Of a DNA stretch of 56,812 nt, positions 7,496-14,644 are shown one piece after another. The notes under the pieces were generated by a model. The model ran no database searches. It had not been told where the DNA came from and worked only from the letters and a program-made list of their open reading frames with translations. Source of the DNA: an uncultured Armatimonadota bacterium (GTDB taxonomy: Bacteria; Armatimonadota; Fimbriimonadia; Fimbriimonadales; Fimbriimonadaceae). Where the stretch lies: NCBI GenBank assembly GCA_903927025.1, contig CAIYLG010000049.1, positions 1-56,812 of the forward strand. Direction: 5' to 3'. The translations under genes and the position numbers were made by a program. Positions within the stretch are counted from its first letter, which is position 1. Every line of letters starts with the position of its first letter.

Positions 7496-9418
7496 CTACT
7501 TCCCTTCCGGCAATGTGCTCGCTAGCGCCATTGTGGCGAGTGCGGTGCCATGTTGGGAGATCCACTGATCGTGACCGTAGGGGAAACCGCTTTCGAAATA
7601 CGGCTGGAATTTGAACGAGCGGGTGACAACGTGCCAGGTTCCGTCGGCTTGCTGGGTGTCGGTAAGGAACTGAATTCCGCGCTTGTACACCGGGTCGGAA
7701 GTCAACACACCTGCCTCGTGAAGAGCGAGGAGAACCTCGCCGGTGGCGTAGGCATCGGCAGTGAGATTGTCGGTCTGACCCCAGCCACCATGTTTTCGCT
7801 GCCGCGATGCCAATTGCTTTACCCAACCGCTTGGGACCTTCTCTCCCGCCCACGACAGACCCAAGATCTGCATGGATCGGTCCTCAGTGCTGGTTGGCTT
7901 TGCATGCTTGAGCCAGTTCACGGCTCTGGAAACTGCATTGTCAATCTCAGCCTGACGCCCGGGGATTGCGAACGAGCGAAGGGCAAGGACGCACTGAGCG
8001 GTTGCCGTGAATTCTCCATCCTCAAAAGGGGGACGCACTTCACCTGAAAGCGGCCATTCTCCCGTCACGTGCTGCGAGGACAGCAGGTAGTGGACCATGG
8101 TGTCGGTGGCAAGCGAGGGTTTGGTGCCAGCGGAGGCGAGGTGCATGAGATACACCGCGACGGTATGGTAGGAGCCGCCCATATCCTGGAGCAGCGCCAT
8201 GTCCTCCTGATCTGAAGCCGCGAATCCAGCGGTAGCTTCTCGATTCTTGCTTTCTAAATCGCTATCGGCCCTTACGCCGTAAGACTTGACCATAGAAACG
8301 GCAAGACCCGTATACGATTGTGCGTGACACGAAATGCATCCGCCTTTCCCTAAAAATGCCGCACTTGCAGGTTGGCAGACCGACAGCGATTTGGAAATGC
8401 ACGTCTTTACATAGTCCGGTGTCGGAGAGCCCTCACGTCCAGCCTTAAGATCACCCTCTACGGGCGTTGCCTTAAGGCTGAACTGGGCCAGAATTCGAGG
8501 GTTGTTGTACCGCTTGGCCCACGCAACTGCTGGCTTGGGGTCTGCGCCGCGATCCAGCAGGAGCTTGACAATCTTTGGATTCGCATGATCCGTCGCCACC
8601 GCGAAAACGAGTGGAGTTGCCTTTCGGCAGTCCAGCACGTTGACATCTGCTCCCGCATCAATTAGAGCCTTTGTCGCACCGAAATTGCCCACCGCCGCCA
8701 GATGTAGGGCAGTGAGTCCGCCAATAAGGATGGGACCATTCTGCACCCGTGGGCCGGATTCGTTTGACCTTGCTCCAACCTTGGCTCCGTGTTTGATGAG
8801 GAGCCGAACAATCGCTTCGTTGTCGTAGCCGTTGCCAGCCGCAGCAATCAGGGCCGTTTGACCTCCGATGTCGACATTGTTCACTTCGGCGCCGTGGGCA
8901 ATCAGATACGCGGCAATGTTCAGGCAGTTGCTGCCGGCCGCGTTTTCCAAAGGTGAAACCTTTCCTCGATTGAGGGCATTCACGTCCGCACCTTTCTCAA
9001 CCAAAAGCTTCACAGCCTCGAAGCCGCTGGGAATACCTGACGCCAGTTCGAGGGCGGTATGGAGATCCTTCGTCTTGGTGCCCGCCTTAGCGCCGTGCTC
9101 CAAAAGGAGTCGAACCTTCCGCACATCACCGGGGCACCACATGAGCGGCGTAGTACCGTTCTTGTTTGCCTCGTTGGGGTCCGCCCCGGCCTTCAAGAGC
9201 GCATCGACTGCCTCGACGCTTCCGCTTAGTGCGGCAAGCATTAGGGGAGTGTTCCCCTTTTCATCAATCGGTTTGTCCTTAGCGAGTTCTTGAATGGCTT
9301 TCAGGTCGTTTTTGCGCAGAGCAATATAGAACTGATCGGAAGGCGAATGATTTCCTGCCGCTATGCCAAGCGCCACTAGCGGAACAAAACATAACAGGCG
9401 AAGCGATTTCCTCATCAT
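7496..9418 (-). CDS. Exported ankyrin-repeat protein with a CxxCH motif and C-terminal alpha/alpha-toroid domain
   Basis: 640 residues from the ATG at 9418, which starts a signal peptide (MMRKSLRLLCFVPLVALGI). Residues about 40-300 hold roughly seven ankyrin repeats (for example NTPLMLAALSGSVEAVDALL, TALHLAAVGNFGATKALIDA). Cys361-His365 (CISCH) is a c-type heme attachment motif. Residues about 390-640 resemble the alpha/alpha toroid of prenyltransferases and squalene cyclases (QRKHGGWGQTDN, ADGTWHV, QWISQHGTALATMALA), a fold also used in non-catalytic roles. Whether heme is bound or any cyclisation occurs cannot be told. The frame stays open for 91 more codons upstream, but that stretch lacks a start signal and precedes the signal peptide, so it was left out. 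It is divergent from the ilv leader. Confidence 0.8.
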   Translation of the reverse strand: MMRKSLRLLCFVPLVALGIAAGNHSPSDQFYIALRKNDLKAIQELAKDKPIDEKGNTPLMLAALSGSVEAVDALLKAGADPNEANKNGTTPLMWCPGDVRKVRLLLEHGAKAGTKTKDLHTALELASGIPSGFEAVKLLVEKGADVNALNRGKVSPLENAAGSNCLNIAAYLIAHGAEVNNVDIGGQTALIAAAGNGYDNEAIVRLLIKHGAKVGARSNESGPRVQNGPILIGGLTALHLAAVGNFGATKALIDAGADVNVLDCRKATPLVFAVATDHANPKIVKLLLDRGADPKPAVAWAKRYNNPRILAQFSLKATPVEGDLKAGREGSPTPDYVKTCISKSLSVCQPASAAFLGKGGCISCHAQSYTGLAVSMVKSYGVRADSDLESKNREATAGFAASDQEDMALLQDMGGSYHTVAVYLMHLASAGTKPSLATDTMVHYLLSSQHVTGEWPLSGEVRPPFEDGEFTATAQCVLALRSFAIPGRQAEIDNAVSRAVNWLKHAKPTSTEDRSMQILGLSWAGEKVPSGWVKQLASRQRKHGGWGQTDNLTADAYATGEVLLALHEAGVLTSDPVYKRGIQFLTDTQQADGTWHVVTRSFKFQPYFESGFPYGHDQWISQHGTALATMALASTLPEGK

Positions 9419-9705
9419 TTGGTACCAGTTCTTCGGCGGATCTGCCGGGAGAAACCTCAAGCAATATATCAGGAAGGCTGACTGAAGCGGAATAGCGCAT
9501 GAAGCTGTCCCATACAGGGATGGGTGCGAATATTTGGGGACATGATTTCCGAAACCACGACCTTTCACCCGTCCTTTCCAGGGCAATCGGCTCAAACCAA
9601 CCCTTTTGTTTAAGGCTGATTTAAGGGTTATGCCAACCCGGTACGCAAAAATACGCGGAGGTGGTGTATTATTTCCCTCACGTGTTAGCACGAGCTGAAG
9701 TCAAT

Positions 9706-9798
9706 ATGGTCGCTTCCAATGTCCAGGTTCTCCTTGGGCTTAGCGTCCTTGTACTTCTTGGGCTCCTCCTTGGCATTATTATCGGATTGCCAACGTAA
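9706..9798 (+). CDS. Branched-chain leader peptide of the ilv operon
   Basis: A 30-residue ORF beginning MVASNVQVLL and ending GLPT. It contains 10 Leu, 5 Val and 3 Ile, so 18 of 30 residues are the end products of the downstream pathway. It lies 181 bp before ilvB and just upstream of a strong terminator with a competing antiterminator, the arrangement of ilvL/ivbL-type leader peptides. Runs of Leu (residues 15-22) and three consecutive Ile codons (24-26) are natural stall sites when charged tRNA is scarce. A weak GAAG site precedes the ATG, and a TATTAT box at 9667-9672 could be the promoter -10. The alternative is a single-pass membrane microprotein, but the RNA context favours a leader. 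Confidence 0.8.
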   Translation: MVASNVQVLLGLSVLVLLGLLLGIIIGLPT

Positions 9799-9868
9799 CG
9801 CCCCGGGAAGCCAGAACGAAGCTTGAAACCTTGTAAAAGGCCTTCCCGGGAAACCGGGAAGGCCTTTT
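9754..9868 (+). promoter_or_regulatory. Transcription attenuator of ilvBNC
   Basis: Four segments can be paired by eye. Segment 1 (9754-9763) lies inside the Leu codon cluster and can pair with segment 2 (9802-9810, CCCGGGAAG), allowing two G-U pairs and a bulge. Segment 2 is also a perfect 9-bp complement of segment 3 (9842-9850, CTTCCCGGG). Segment 3 forms the left arm of the terminator with segment 4 (9854-9868). A ribosome finishing at the stop codon (9796-9798) would cover segment 2 and allow termination. A ribosome stalled on Leu or Ile codons would cover segment 1, free segment 2 and give antitermination. This is the classic amino-acid attenuation logic. The pairings are seen; the mechanism is inferred. 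Confidence 0.8.
9835..9868 (+). terminator. Attenuator terminator hairpin
   Basis: A perfect 15-bp stem (9835-9849 with 9854-9868) with a GAAA tetraloop, ending in a short T tract that is part of the stem. It sits between the leader peptide and ilvB, so unregulated it would prevent expression of the operon. Confidence 0.85.
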
Positions 9869-9979
9869 GTGCTGATAGGGCCTAAGATAGCCCCTATCCG
9901 CTCTGCGAGTCACGTAATGGATTGCGCGCCGACACTGCCGTCGGCTCAGAGGCCGACGCTGGCCGCAGGAGCGAAATAC

Positions 9980-11716
9980 ATGAATCGAACTGGCGCGAAA
10001 ATAGTTATGGAAGCCCTCGTCCGCGAGGGTGTGGATACGATCTTCGGTTATCCCGGCGGCGTGGTGCTGCCCCTCTACGACGAAATGCTGAACTGGCCCA
10101 CGGTCAAGCACGTGCTTGTCCGCCACGAACAGTGCGCGGCGCACATGGCAGACGGCTACGCCCGAGCCACCGGTAGAGTCGGCGTCTGCCTGGCCACCAG
10201 CGGCCCTGGCGCGACGAACTTAGTCACCGGGATTGCGACCGCCATCATGGACGGTATCCCGATGGTCGCCATCACCGGCAACGTCAACTCATGGGCGATC
10301 GGCAAAGATGCGTTTCAGGAGACCGACATCCAAGGCATCACGATTCCGATCACTAAACACAACTATTTGGTAACGGATATTCACGAGCTGCCCCAGGTCC
10401 TGGCCGAGGCGTTCTACCTCGCCAATACCGGGAGAAAGGGTCCCGTGCTCGTTGACATTCCTAAGGATGTCTTCACCGCTCTCACCGACGCCCCGTTCCC
10501 AGACACGATTGAGCGTCGCGGCTACAAGCCAGCGGGCGCGCCAGCCGCGGCTGAAGTTGCCGAAGCCGCCCGGCTGATTGCCGAAGCGAAGCGACCCGTC
10601 ATGATCGCGGGTGCTGGTGTTCTTCACGCCGGCGCAGTCGACGAACTCAGAGTTTTTGCAGAGACCACCAAGATCCCCGTCATCAATTCGCTCCTGGGAT
10701 TGGGATCCTTCCCTCGTGACCACGAACTCTCCCTTGGAATGATGGGAATGCACGGTGAAGCCACCGGCACCCTTGCCGTGCAGGAAGCAGACCTAGTGAT
10801 TGGCGTCGGTATCCGATTCGACGACCGGCTCACCGGCGCTACGAACGGCTTTGCTCCCAAGGCCAAGATTCTCCACTTCGACCTGGACCCCAGCGAAATC
10901 GGTAAAACGGTCACCCCAACCGCCTTCGTCTTGGGAGATCTCAAGATCAGCCTCACCGAGTTGAACAAAATCGTCCAGCCGAAGGTGCTGGATACCTGGA
11001 TGACTCAGATTCGAGCCTGGCAGGAGAAGTATCCGCTCATCGTGCCGGAGGGTCGATTCCTCTCTCGCACCGTCATCAAGGCGCTGAACGACGTCACCGA
11101 AGGCAACGCAATTGTTGCGACCGATGTTGGTCAGCACCAGATGTGGACTGCTCAGTTCTACAAGATGAAGAAGCCGATGAGCTGGCTCTCGTCAGGAGGA
11201 CTCGGCACCATGGGCTACGGCTTCCCTGCCGCCATTGGAGCCAAGTTTGCCCGTCCGGACGAAGAAGTTTGGGCAGTTGTTGGAGACGGCGGCTTCCAGA
11301 TGACGCTCCAAGAGCTCCAGACTGCCGTCGAATACGGATGCAACGTCAAAATCTGTCTGCTCAACAACGGCTTCCTCGGAATGGTCCGGCAGTGGCAGGA
11401 ACTGTTCTATGACAACCGACACAGCCATGTAGCGATGGGTTCACCCGATTTCGGCAAGCTGGCCGACGCTTACGGCGTGCAGTTCTACCGATGCTCTCGA
11501 CTTGAAGATCTCGAGGAGACGCTTCGGTCCGCCAGCGCCCACGTTGGCCCCGTCCTCTGCGAGTTCGTCGTGGAGATGGAGGAGAACGTCTTCCCGATGG
11601 TTGGCCCAGGCGCCAGCAATGACAAGGTGGTCATGGACCCAGATCTTGAGCCAAGCGAAGCCGCCCACCAGGCCGGCGCGTTTGAAACGACCCACGCAGG
11701 AGCGACCAAAAAGTGA
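9980..11716 (+). CDS. ilvB: Acetolactate synthase large (catalytic) subunit
   Basis: 578 residues. It condenses two pyruvate, or pyruvate plus 2-oxobutyrate, the first committed step of Val/Leu/Ile synthesis. ThDP-enzyme domains appear in order: an N-terminal PYR domain with [15 protein letters not shown] and the catalytic Glu in [18 protein letters not shown], a central FAD-type domain (about 190-340), and a C-terminal PP domain with the ThDP motif [12 protein letters not shown]...LLNNGFLGM. The ATG at 9980 is chosen because AGGAG lies about 8 nt upstream. The frame is open upstream through the leader region, but that extension has no family match. The gene overlaps ilvN by 4 bp, and expression should depend on the attenuator. 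Confidence 0.97.
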
Positions 11717-12198
11717 GCGCCAAGCACCATACCATCACCGCCCTCGTCCAAAACGAGGCGGGCACCATCAATCGACTCGTCTCGCTGTTTCGCCGCCGAG
11801 GATTCTCGCTCGCCAGCTTCAACGCCGGAGACTGTGAGGATCCTGGCTTCAGCCGTCTCACGTTTATCGTTGACGGCGACGACGCTACGATCAGCCAGTG
11901 CCTCAAGCAGTTGGACAAGCTTATAGATGTGGTCGAGTGCGAAGACCTCCCTCAGGACATCAGCGTTCAGCGCGAGCTTGCCCTTATTCGGGTTGAGCCT
12001 ACCGAGGACCAGCGCCAAGGGGTCTACAACGTCGTGAATGAATTCATGGCCCGCACTCCACGGTCTACTCCCACTTGCATCGTGGTGGAGCAGGCTGCCG
12101 ATGTGAAGGAAGTTGAGCGACTGATCGATGCGCTGAAGCCCTTCAACATCACCGAAATCGTACGCACCGGAGTCGTCGCGCTTAAGACTGAGCGGTAA
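11713..12198 (+). CDS. ilvN: Acetolactate synthase small (regulatory) subunit
   Basis: 161 residues, starting at a GTG that overlaps the ilvB stop (GTGA). The N-terminal ACT domain (residues about 5-75: [32 protein letters not shown]) binds branched-chain amino acids for feedback inhibition. The C-terminal domain (about 85-161) matches the standard small-subunit tail. Length is usual for the family. The 4-bp overlap suggests coupled synthesis with the catalytic subunit. Confidence 0.96.
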
Positions 12199-12228: not shown

Positions 12229-13224
12229 ATGGCCACCATCTATTACGAAAAAGACGTCCAACCAGACATTATCAAGGATCTCAAAGTTGGGATCATCGGC
12301 TACGGCTCCCAGGGCCACGCCCACGCTCTAAACCTCCACGATAGCGGAGTCAACGTTCGCGTCGGGTTGCACGAAGGCAGCAAGTCAAAGGCTAAGGCTA
12401 AGGAAGCCGGTCTCGTTGTCGAAACAGTTGCCGAGCTCACCAAGTGGGCAGATGTCCTGATGTTCTGCACCCCAGACGTCCCCATGGGCGACATCTACCG
12501 AGAGAGCGTTGCTCCTAACGTTCACGCAGGGCAAACGCTTCTGTTCGCTCACGGATTCAACATCCACTACAAGCTGATTTCTCCTCCCGCAGAAATCAAT
12601 GTGGCAATGGTTGCCCCCAAGGGTCCTGGTCACCGACTCCGCGCTGAGTACGTCAATGGAGCCGGAATGCCAGCTCTCGTTGCCGTTCAGCAGGACGCAA
12701 CCGGCAACGCCAAGCAGATCGCCATGAGCTACGCATGGGGAATTGGCAGCGCCAAGGCAGGCATCCTTGAGACGACGTTCAAGGAAGAGACCGAGACCGA
12801 CCTATTCGGCGAGCAGGCCGTGCTCTGCGGCGGTCTCAGCGATCTCATCAAGGCGGGTTTCAATACGCTTGTTGAAGCCGGATACCAGCCCGAAGCAGCC
12901 TACTTCGAGTGTCTGCACGAAACTAAGCTCATCGTCGACCTCCTGTATGAAGGTGGACTCGACTACATGCGCTATTCGATCAGCGACACCGCGGAATGGG
13001 GTGATTACACCGCGGGTCCCAAGGTGATCAACGAAGCTTCCAAGGAAGCCATGAAGGGCATCCTCAAGGACATTCAGGACGGCACATTTGCCAAGGACTG
13101 GATCGAGGAGAACAAGAATGGTCGCCCTCGCATGACTGCCTATCGCCAAGCCGAAAGTGGTCTGCTGCTGGAGAAAGTTGGCAAAGAGCTCCGCGCACTG
13201 ATGCCATTCATTAACGCCAAGTGA
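12229..13224 (+). CDS. ilvC: Ketol-acid reductoisomerase (class I)
   Basis: 331 residues, the length of short class I enzymes. It isomerises and reduces acetolactate or acetohydroxybutyrate with NADPH and Mg. The Rossmann motif [13 protein letters not shown] is at about residues 24-36. The cofactor loop [13 protein letters not shown] keeps Ser residues that usually bind the NADPH phosphate. The C-terminal helical domain has the metal-binding [16 protein letters not shown]. It begins 30 bp after ilvN and its stop overlaps the following ABC gene by 4 bp. Confidence 0.97.
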
Positions 13225-14015
13225 ACCAGGCTCCCCTCGTACAGTTTGACGGCGTGACGGTCGTTCGGAATGGCCGAACGGCGCTCAACGACGTCTCGCT
13301 GTCGATTGCGCGAGGGGAGAATGTGGCGATTCTGGGACCAAACGGCTGCGGTAAGTCCACTTTGGTGAAAGCGATCTGCGGCGAACTGCGCCCTTTCGCG
13401 GGTCGCGGTTCAGTGAAAGTCGAAGGTCGCGATCGGTGGAATGTATTTGAGCTACGCAAGGCGCTCGGCATCATTTCGAATGATCTCCAGGCTCTCTGTG
13501 TTCGCGAGGAAACCGTGATCGACTTAGTGGTGTCTGGATTCTTTGGCAGCTACGGGGTCCTAGAGCCTTATCAAGTGACGGCAGACCAACGGGCCCAAGC
13601 GTACGAGCGCCTGAAGTTTCTTGAAGCGGATCACCTTGCGGAACGCCCTGTCAATGAGCTCTCTAGCGGTGAAGCGCGCCGAGTTCTCATTGCTCGGGCA
13701 TTGGTGCATTCACCTGGGGCACTTCTTCTGGATGAACCCACCACGAGCCTCGATATCAAGTCGGCTCATCGGCTCTTGCAGACCCTTCGCCGAGTAGCAA
13801 GCCACGACATAAACCTCGTTTTAGTCACCCACCATGTTGAGGAACTGGTCCCAGAGATCTCCCGCGTCATTCTCCTCAAAGAGGGCAGGGTCTTCTTGGA
13901 CGGCCCCAAGGAGGTCGTCATGACTTCGGCGAATCTAACCGAGCTTTATGAAGCTCCAGTAAACTTGAGCCTGTCGTGCGGAATCTATCGTGCCACGATG
14001 GAGATAAACGCATGA
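13221..14015 (+). CDS. Orphan ABC transporter ATP-binding protein in the ilv operon
   Basis: 264 residues with a full ABC ATPase set: Walker [10 protein letters not shown] (39-47), signature LSSGEARR, Walker [12 protein letters not shown] and H-loop VTHH. The GTG start overlaps the ilvC stop. No permease or binding protein gene is nearby, so it may serve a permease coded elsewhere or have a non-transport role, as with ModF/YlmA-like single ATPases. It ends with a 4-bp ATGA overlap into the methyltransferase. Its position inside an amino-acid operon suggests co-regulation with branched-chain synthesis; substrate unknown. Confidence 0.85.
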
Positions 14016-14644
14016 TCGCCGAATACCAGACCGTAGAAAAGGCCCTCGCCTATCTGGCTGCCGCCGACCAGATTACGGAACGAGTCCATGGCGAAAGGAT
14101 GTTGCTGAGCCTCCTTCCGGAAAAAATGAGTCGGGTCTTGGATCTTGGCACCGGCGATGGACGTCTGATTGCCCTGATTAAACTCGCGCACCCAGATGTT
14201 GAGGCCATGGCAACAGACTTTTCACCCACGATGTTGGAGCGGGCGGCCGATCGCTTTAAGGACGACCACTCTGTGACAGTTATCGACCATGACTTCGGTG
14301 ATTCCATCTCCCACCTGGGTCCGTTCGATGCCATCGTTTCCAGCTTTGCCATCCATCACGTGGAGGACGACCGCAAACAGTCTCTCCTGCGAGAGATCTT
14401 CGATTCGCTGGCTCCAGGAGGCGTATTCGCCAACCTTGAGCATGTTCTGTCTCCTACCGAAAAGCTCCACGATAATTTCCTGTCAGCGATTGGACAAACC
14501 CGAGAAAGCGAGGACAAATCCAACCGATGCAGTCCAGTCCAAGTGCAGTTGGAATGGCTGAGAGAAGTCGGATTTGAAGATGTTGAATGCTTTTGGAAAT
14601 GGCGCGAGTTGGCGCTACTCGCTGGCACAAAACCACTGATTTAA
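14012..14644 (+). CDS. Class I SAM-dependent methyltransferase
   Basis: 210 residues. The start ATG overlaps the ABC stop (ATGA) and follows a GGAG site. SAM motif I is VLDLGTGDG (42-50), then [12 protein letters not shown] (motif II) and [18 protein letters not shown] (post-motif with the typical SFAIHH). These features place it with small-molecule methyltransferases of the UbiE/BioC-like group. The C-terminal third contains a variable substrate lid. The methyl acceptor is unknown. Tight coupling to the ABC ATPase suggests a joint function. ilvD starts 20 bp downstream. Confidence 0.85.

Follow-up and report, generated by a model that had tools for sequence, protein, structure and literature searches.

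The authors of a survey published in 2010 knew leader-peptide systems only from the Proteobacteria and Actinobacteria and added one case from the Firmicutes; switches from T-box to leader-peptide control between phyla were already described there (PMC2965389). For the ilvBNC operon of Corynebacterium glutamicum, PMC11857589 places the start of the leader one base from its transcription start site (TSS). According to PMC3160421, leaderless genes in bacteria are marked by a TANNNT motif about 12 bases 5' of their start, and initiation at a leaderless GTG is efficient in mycobacteria (PMC4633059). The anatomy of such a leader is no proof of its mechanism, since a similar-looking leader of ilvB in Streptomyces coelicolor gave no response to changed regulatory codons and did not behave like an attenuator (PMC1262725).

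The stretch of DNA analysed here (the window; 56,812 nucleotides) comes from an uncultured member of the Fimbriimonadaceae, in agreement with the Armatimonadota-type host named in the initial annotation. The region upstream of ilvBNC had been annotated as a ribosome-mediated attenuator, a reading that our analysis supports and to which it adds a probable leaderless promoter arrangement that had been missed. Judged by comparative evidence, this region is very probably a transcription attenuator of ilvBNC that senses the charging of Leu, Val and Ile tRNA through a translating ribosome. A literature search covering few subscription papers found no report of attenuation in the Armatimonadota, and we regard it as a genuine, comparatively supported case of a known kind of control, which would now extend to this phylum.

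The genes 3' of the putative attenuator, all on the forward strand, had been read as ilvB, ilvN and ilvC, and curated models agree: ilvB encodes the acetolactate synthase large subunit (9980–11716; TIGR00118, 750 bits), ilvN its small subunit (11713–12198; TIGR00119) and ilvC the ketol-acid reductoisomerase (12229–13224; TIGR00465), the latter two scoring over cut-off. Between ilvC and ilvD, the translations of 13221–14644 read as ABC-transporter ATPase-like and methyltransferase-like ORFs, and the rest of the cluster is biosynthetic.

The leader peptide gene and its conservation

Direct reading of positions 9706–9868 finds an ORF rich in codons for branched-chain amino acids (BCAAs), a terminator-like hairpin and a 9-nt antiterminator segment, all at the coordinates given earlier. 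The ORF had been described as a 30-codon leader running on the forward strand from ATG 9706 to TAA 9796–9798 (9706–9798), with 18 of its 30 codons for Leu, Ile or Val. Its composition stands; its start and length do not, and this ORF covers the leader gene only in part. The position of ATG 9706 is AGG, AAG and ACG in the nearest relatives L004, L005 and L006, respectively, and upstream of it the frame is open and similar among relatives back to GTG 9682 (VLARAEVN, VLTRAEVN, VFARASID). We therefore reject ATG 9706 as the start: the leader gene, which encodes VLARAEVNMVASNVQVLLGLSVLVLLGLLLGIIIGLPT, occupies 9682–9798 of the forward strand with a GTG start and 38 codons plus TAA, and both its frame and its start are conserved in relatives. 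Leu, Ile and Val make up 21 of the 38 residues, and a Shine-Dalgarno sequence is absent.

To place this leader in its family, we compared 21 close ilvB loci, of which 19, the window included, come from whole genomes within this family and two from a named collection. All 21 show a BCAA-rich ORF of 31–43 codons with its stop codon, then a complementary segment 2 by that stop and, past a spacer, a hairpin rich in GC; a further member of the family (L268) has the same layout. The aligned upstream regions bear out the initial annotation in that both the BCAA-rich leader and a pair of covarying, mutually exclusive pairings are conserved in the relatives.

Because the peptide is hydrophobic and is followed by a terminator-like hairpin, the ORF could also be read as the gene of a small membrane protein with its own terminator, unrelated to the control of ilvB. 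Several observations make this very unlikely. The hydrophobic residues are almost only Leu, Ile and Val, which in the last 20 residues of the 21 leaders amount to a mean of 59%, as against only 1% for Phe, Tyr, Met and Trp, a composition that points to selection on BCAA codons and away from a membrane helix; the peptide sequences diverge among loci yet keep their BCAA density, with enrichment of these codons conserved throughout; a complementary segment 2 lies directly 3' of the stop in every locus; and in all loci seen the ORF, like the whole arrangement of leader and hairpin, lies 5' of ilvB.

The leaders further differ from the genes they precede in their choice of codons. Across the 21 loci, CTT accounts for 52% of Leu codons in the leaders versus 17% in ilvB, and ATT for 85% of Ile codons versus 28% (Fisher p near 1e-20 in each case); the Val codons of the same leaders show no comparable shift to GTT. 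The bias may stem from slower wobble decoding or from base pairs formed with the GAAG of segment 2.

The same scan applied upstream of leuA (14 loci) and trpE (17 loci) in the relatives found no attenuator. His-rich leader peptides were seen 5' of hisG in four congeners (L185, L187, L188, L189) and in another family of the order (L184), namely MLNLLHHHHIHHHCA, MNGFFHHHHTSHHLA, MSGFFRHHHHSGHHHA, MTGFFRHHHHSHHHHA and VSRNEVFQGHHHHGLDEAGS. In most of them a -10-like box stands just 5' of the start, and in L184 there is, in addition, a GC-rich hairpin with a T-rich tail. Attenuation of his genes in this order is probable, and no His-rich leader was seen upstream of hisG in the window's own genome. 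Many nearly complete genomes of the Fimbriimonadaceae (G010, G015, G020, G021, G024, G026, G028–G030 and others) gave no match to IlvB, which suggests that BCAA synthesis has been lost in part of the family.

Competing RNA structures and a probable leaderless start

The 5' half of the antiterminator, segment 2 (CCCGGGAAG, 9802–9810, forward strand), begins 3 nt past the leader stop in the window and is a perfect 9-bp complement of segment 3 (CTTCCCGGG, 9842–9850), which is common to antiterminator and terminator. The terminator hairpin, AAAAGGCCTTCCCGG-GAAA-CCGGGAAGGCCTTTT, spans 9835–9868 with 15 bp and a GAAA loop. Stem, loop, competing pairing and the distance of segment 2 from the stop had all been correctly described. 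Counted from the base that follows the stop codon, the pairing sets in between -8 and +2 nt in all loci, where a ribosome at the stop could reach it, and the spacing from leader stop to hairpin is constrained to 23–36 nt.

Compared with shuffled sequences, the region 9700–9880 folds with z = -3.57, and the terminator hairpin alone with -28.1 kcal/mol and z = -5.6. The antiterminator is weaker (-21.2 vs -28.1 kcal/mol) yet forms first, which is the usual kinetic order of the classical design. The 2:3 duplex of the window has p = 0.001 against shuffled spacers, and 19 of the 21 loci reach p < 0.05 in the same comparison, L012 and L040 not being significant alone; the pooled p of 8e-25 overstates the evidence, as the loci are related and not independent. 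Covariation in the MAFFT alignment of the 21 loci gives six double-change cells for the 2:3 pairing and 22 for the 3:4 pairing, neither count being reached in any of 500 shuffles, and in some loci whole stems are altered together (CCCCAGGAAG with CTTCCTGGGG in L008, GGGAAGACC with GGTCTTCCC in L016).

A possible segment 1 or protector (CTTCTTGGGC, 9754–9763, forward strand), also proposed earlier, lies in the Leu codons and does pair with segment 2 in the minimum free energy fold. Against leaders recoded synonymously with their own codon usage, the pairing of 9754–9763 with 9802–9810 reached a combined p of 0.06 across loci, and we do not retain it as a feature independent of what the peptide and its codon usage give.

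The weakest part of the terminator is its tail. The tract 3' of the hairpin in the window is only TTTTGTGCT, short and interrupted, and is not reported by a strict terminator scan; the U-tract is likewise interrupted or short in L003–L006, L011, L013 and L021, the window's sub-clade and near relatives. Together with a second conserved structure just 5' of the ilvB Shine-Dalgarno (described below), these tracts would fit a leader on which the ribosome governs translational coupling or RNA exposure instead of termination. Such a mode of action is unlikely, given the good U-tracts in sister loci of the same layout (L008, L014–L020), the 110 nt that separate the hairpin from ilvB, and the covariation of this hairpin, which exceeds that of any other part of the attenuator.

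Upstream of the leader, a putative -10 box of the attenuator transcript, TATTAT, is found at 9667–9672 (forward strand), with GTG 9682 nine bases 3' of it. Each of the 21 leader starts is preceded at 6–12 nt by a TANNNT box, for which chance would predict about 13% per locus; leader starts were picked among few candidates per locus, which raises the chance of a match but does not remove the signal. Only two of the 21 loci have a Shine-Dalgarno-like tetramer before the leader start. Strict scans for sigma-70 promoters and for terminators returned no match at 9400–10100, because the promoter signal consists of a -10 box only and the U-tract is interrupted. In the surveyed 734 kb of the window's genome, 6.9% of long ORFs have a TANNNT on their 5' side with a gap of 6, compared with 0.3% of internal codons. 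Across the same 734 kb (L190–L229 and the window), Shine-Dalgarno sites are few beside the leaderless signal. The boxes before the leader starts, the scarcity of Shine-Dalgarno sequences, the genome-wide signal and the precedents in mycobacteria and C. glutamicum make it likely that the ilvBNC leader has no 5' untranslated region and that ribosomes translate it from a leaderless mRNA, the situation in C. glutamicum ilvBNC. As far as sequence can tell, the leader start lies at or near the TSS and is without a Shine-Dalgarno, the arrangement of the C. glutamicum operon.

Combining these elements, we infer that transcription would start at or a few bases from GTG 9682 and that a ribosome would load onto the 5' end of the leaderless mRNA. 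With BCAAs plentiful, it would quickly reach the stop at 9796. With a leading edge some 12 nt past its A site, a ribosome at this stop would cover the RNA to about position 9808 and mask most of segment 2, upon which segments 3 and 4 would pair and RNA polymerase would terminate near 9868. If charged Leu-, Val- or Ile-tRNA were scarce, the ribosome would stall on the BCAA codons of the leader, and a stall at any of them up to Leu36 would leave segment 2 free. Before RNA polymerase had reached segment 4, the free segment 2 would then pair with segment 3, and transcription would enter ilvBNC.

Tandem hairpins before ilvB

Between the terminator and the Shine-Dalgarno of ilvB we found a conserved and covarying tandem-hairpin RNA element (9926–9982), which is unmatched in Rfam. 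Hairpin A, CCGAC[ACTGCC]GTCGG, lies at 9929–9944 and hairpin B, GGCC[GACGCT]GGCC, at 9951–9964, both on the forward strand, the latter ending 2 nt 5' of the Shine-Dalgarno AGGAG (9967–9971). In an alignment of 19 loci, 99.4% of cells pair and 19 cells are changed on both sides, a covariation that no shuffle equals (0 of 500), and with few exceptions both hexaloops fit RNNGNN (motif C[RNNGNN]G). L015 and L018 have what, judged by eye, is a recognizable variant of the element. A covariance model of the tandem hairpins gives convincing matches only before ilvB; the best matches elsewhere that were examined lie inside coding sequence and were taken as chance.

Translation control and mRNA protection are guesses as to its role. 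We tentatively consider that the ilvB leader of the Fimbriimonadaceae might be a two-stage regulator, in which the leaderless attenuator is followed by previously undescribed tandem hairpins that control translation of ilvB or stability of its mRNA, for instance as a protein binding site; this is a possibility we hold with some doubt.

Relation to T-boxes and to known attenuators

In other families of the Armatimonadota, the T-box RF00230 is found above the Rfam threshold before ilvB in nine loci (L269, L277–L281, L286–L288), none of which has a BCAA-rich leader peptide. Its occurrence in the phylum raises the alternative that attenuation in the Fimbriimonadaceae works through another sensor, a T-box or an undescribed aptamer, with the ORF incidental. 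The T-box model has no match in the window or in the 19 ilvB loci of the Fimbriimonadaceae; more widely, no Rfam family matches the window region or the ilvB loci of the 19 relatives at the gathering threshold, and matches at E up to 10 are sub-threshold and at chance level only. As the leader ORF is also far from random, a sensor of this kind is extremely unlikely. The Rfam leader-peptide families likewise gave no match in the region at gathering score.

In a tree of IlvB (53 rows), the attenuator-bearing proteins form a single clade with full support, set apart by a long branch. No donor lineage was seen, since a leader with terminator is lacking before the ilvB genes next closest to these (72 loci, mostly Chloroflexota); the leader may have replaced a T-box, or it may have arrived together with ilvB by transfer. 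With the ribosome-mediated reading, leader-peptide systems would be extended to the Armatimonadota by comparative evidence, and one phylum would have two sensors for the same gene, the T-box of some families and the leader peptide of another, a swap that is open to study. The leaders suggest that attenuation by a translating ribosome operates on leaderless mRNAs; the leaderless signal is frequent before the genes of this lineage. The leaders also bear the marked preference for CTT and ATT.

The T-box of the other Armatimonadota serves the same gene, the same tRNA-charging signal and the same decision point, a terminator; it differs in reading uncharged tRNA directly and without a peptide, and was not found in the Fimbriimonadaceae. 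With the classical ilv, leu and trp attenuators of the Proteobacteria, the present system would share control codons, exclusive 2:3 and 3:4 pairings and the masking of segment 2 by a ribosome at the stop, whereas its leader is apparently without a Shine-Dalgarno, its protector is unsupported and its U-tract is short in part of the clade. The ilvB1NC operon of Mycobacterium tuberculosis, as covered by the available part of PMC13236596, resembles it in a BCAA-rich uORF, in a terminator and antiterminator before ilvB and in a stop-codon ribosome that masks the antiterminator; it belongs to another phylum, four regulatory codons (LVVI) are named for it compared with 21 for Leu, Ile or Val here, and that part describes no tandem hairpins, unlike what is seen here. 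The ilvBNC attenuator of C. glutamicum (IlvL, MTIIRLVVVTARRLP; Morbach 2000 via PMC11857589) has the same operon, a BCAA-rich leader starting one base from the TSS without a ribosome binding site (here the TSS position is predicted from sequence) and mutually exclusive hairpins after the leader. It differs in belonging to another phylum with no sequence similarity seen and in a leader of 15 codons compared with 31–43, and only in the Fimbriimonadaceae, as far as that description goes, does segment 2 abut the stop codon and do tandem hairpins follow the terminator.
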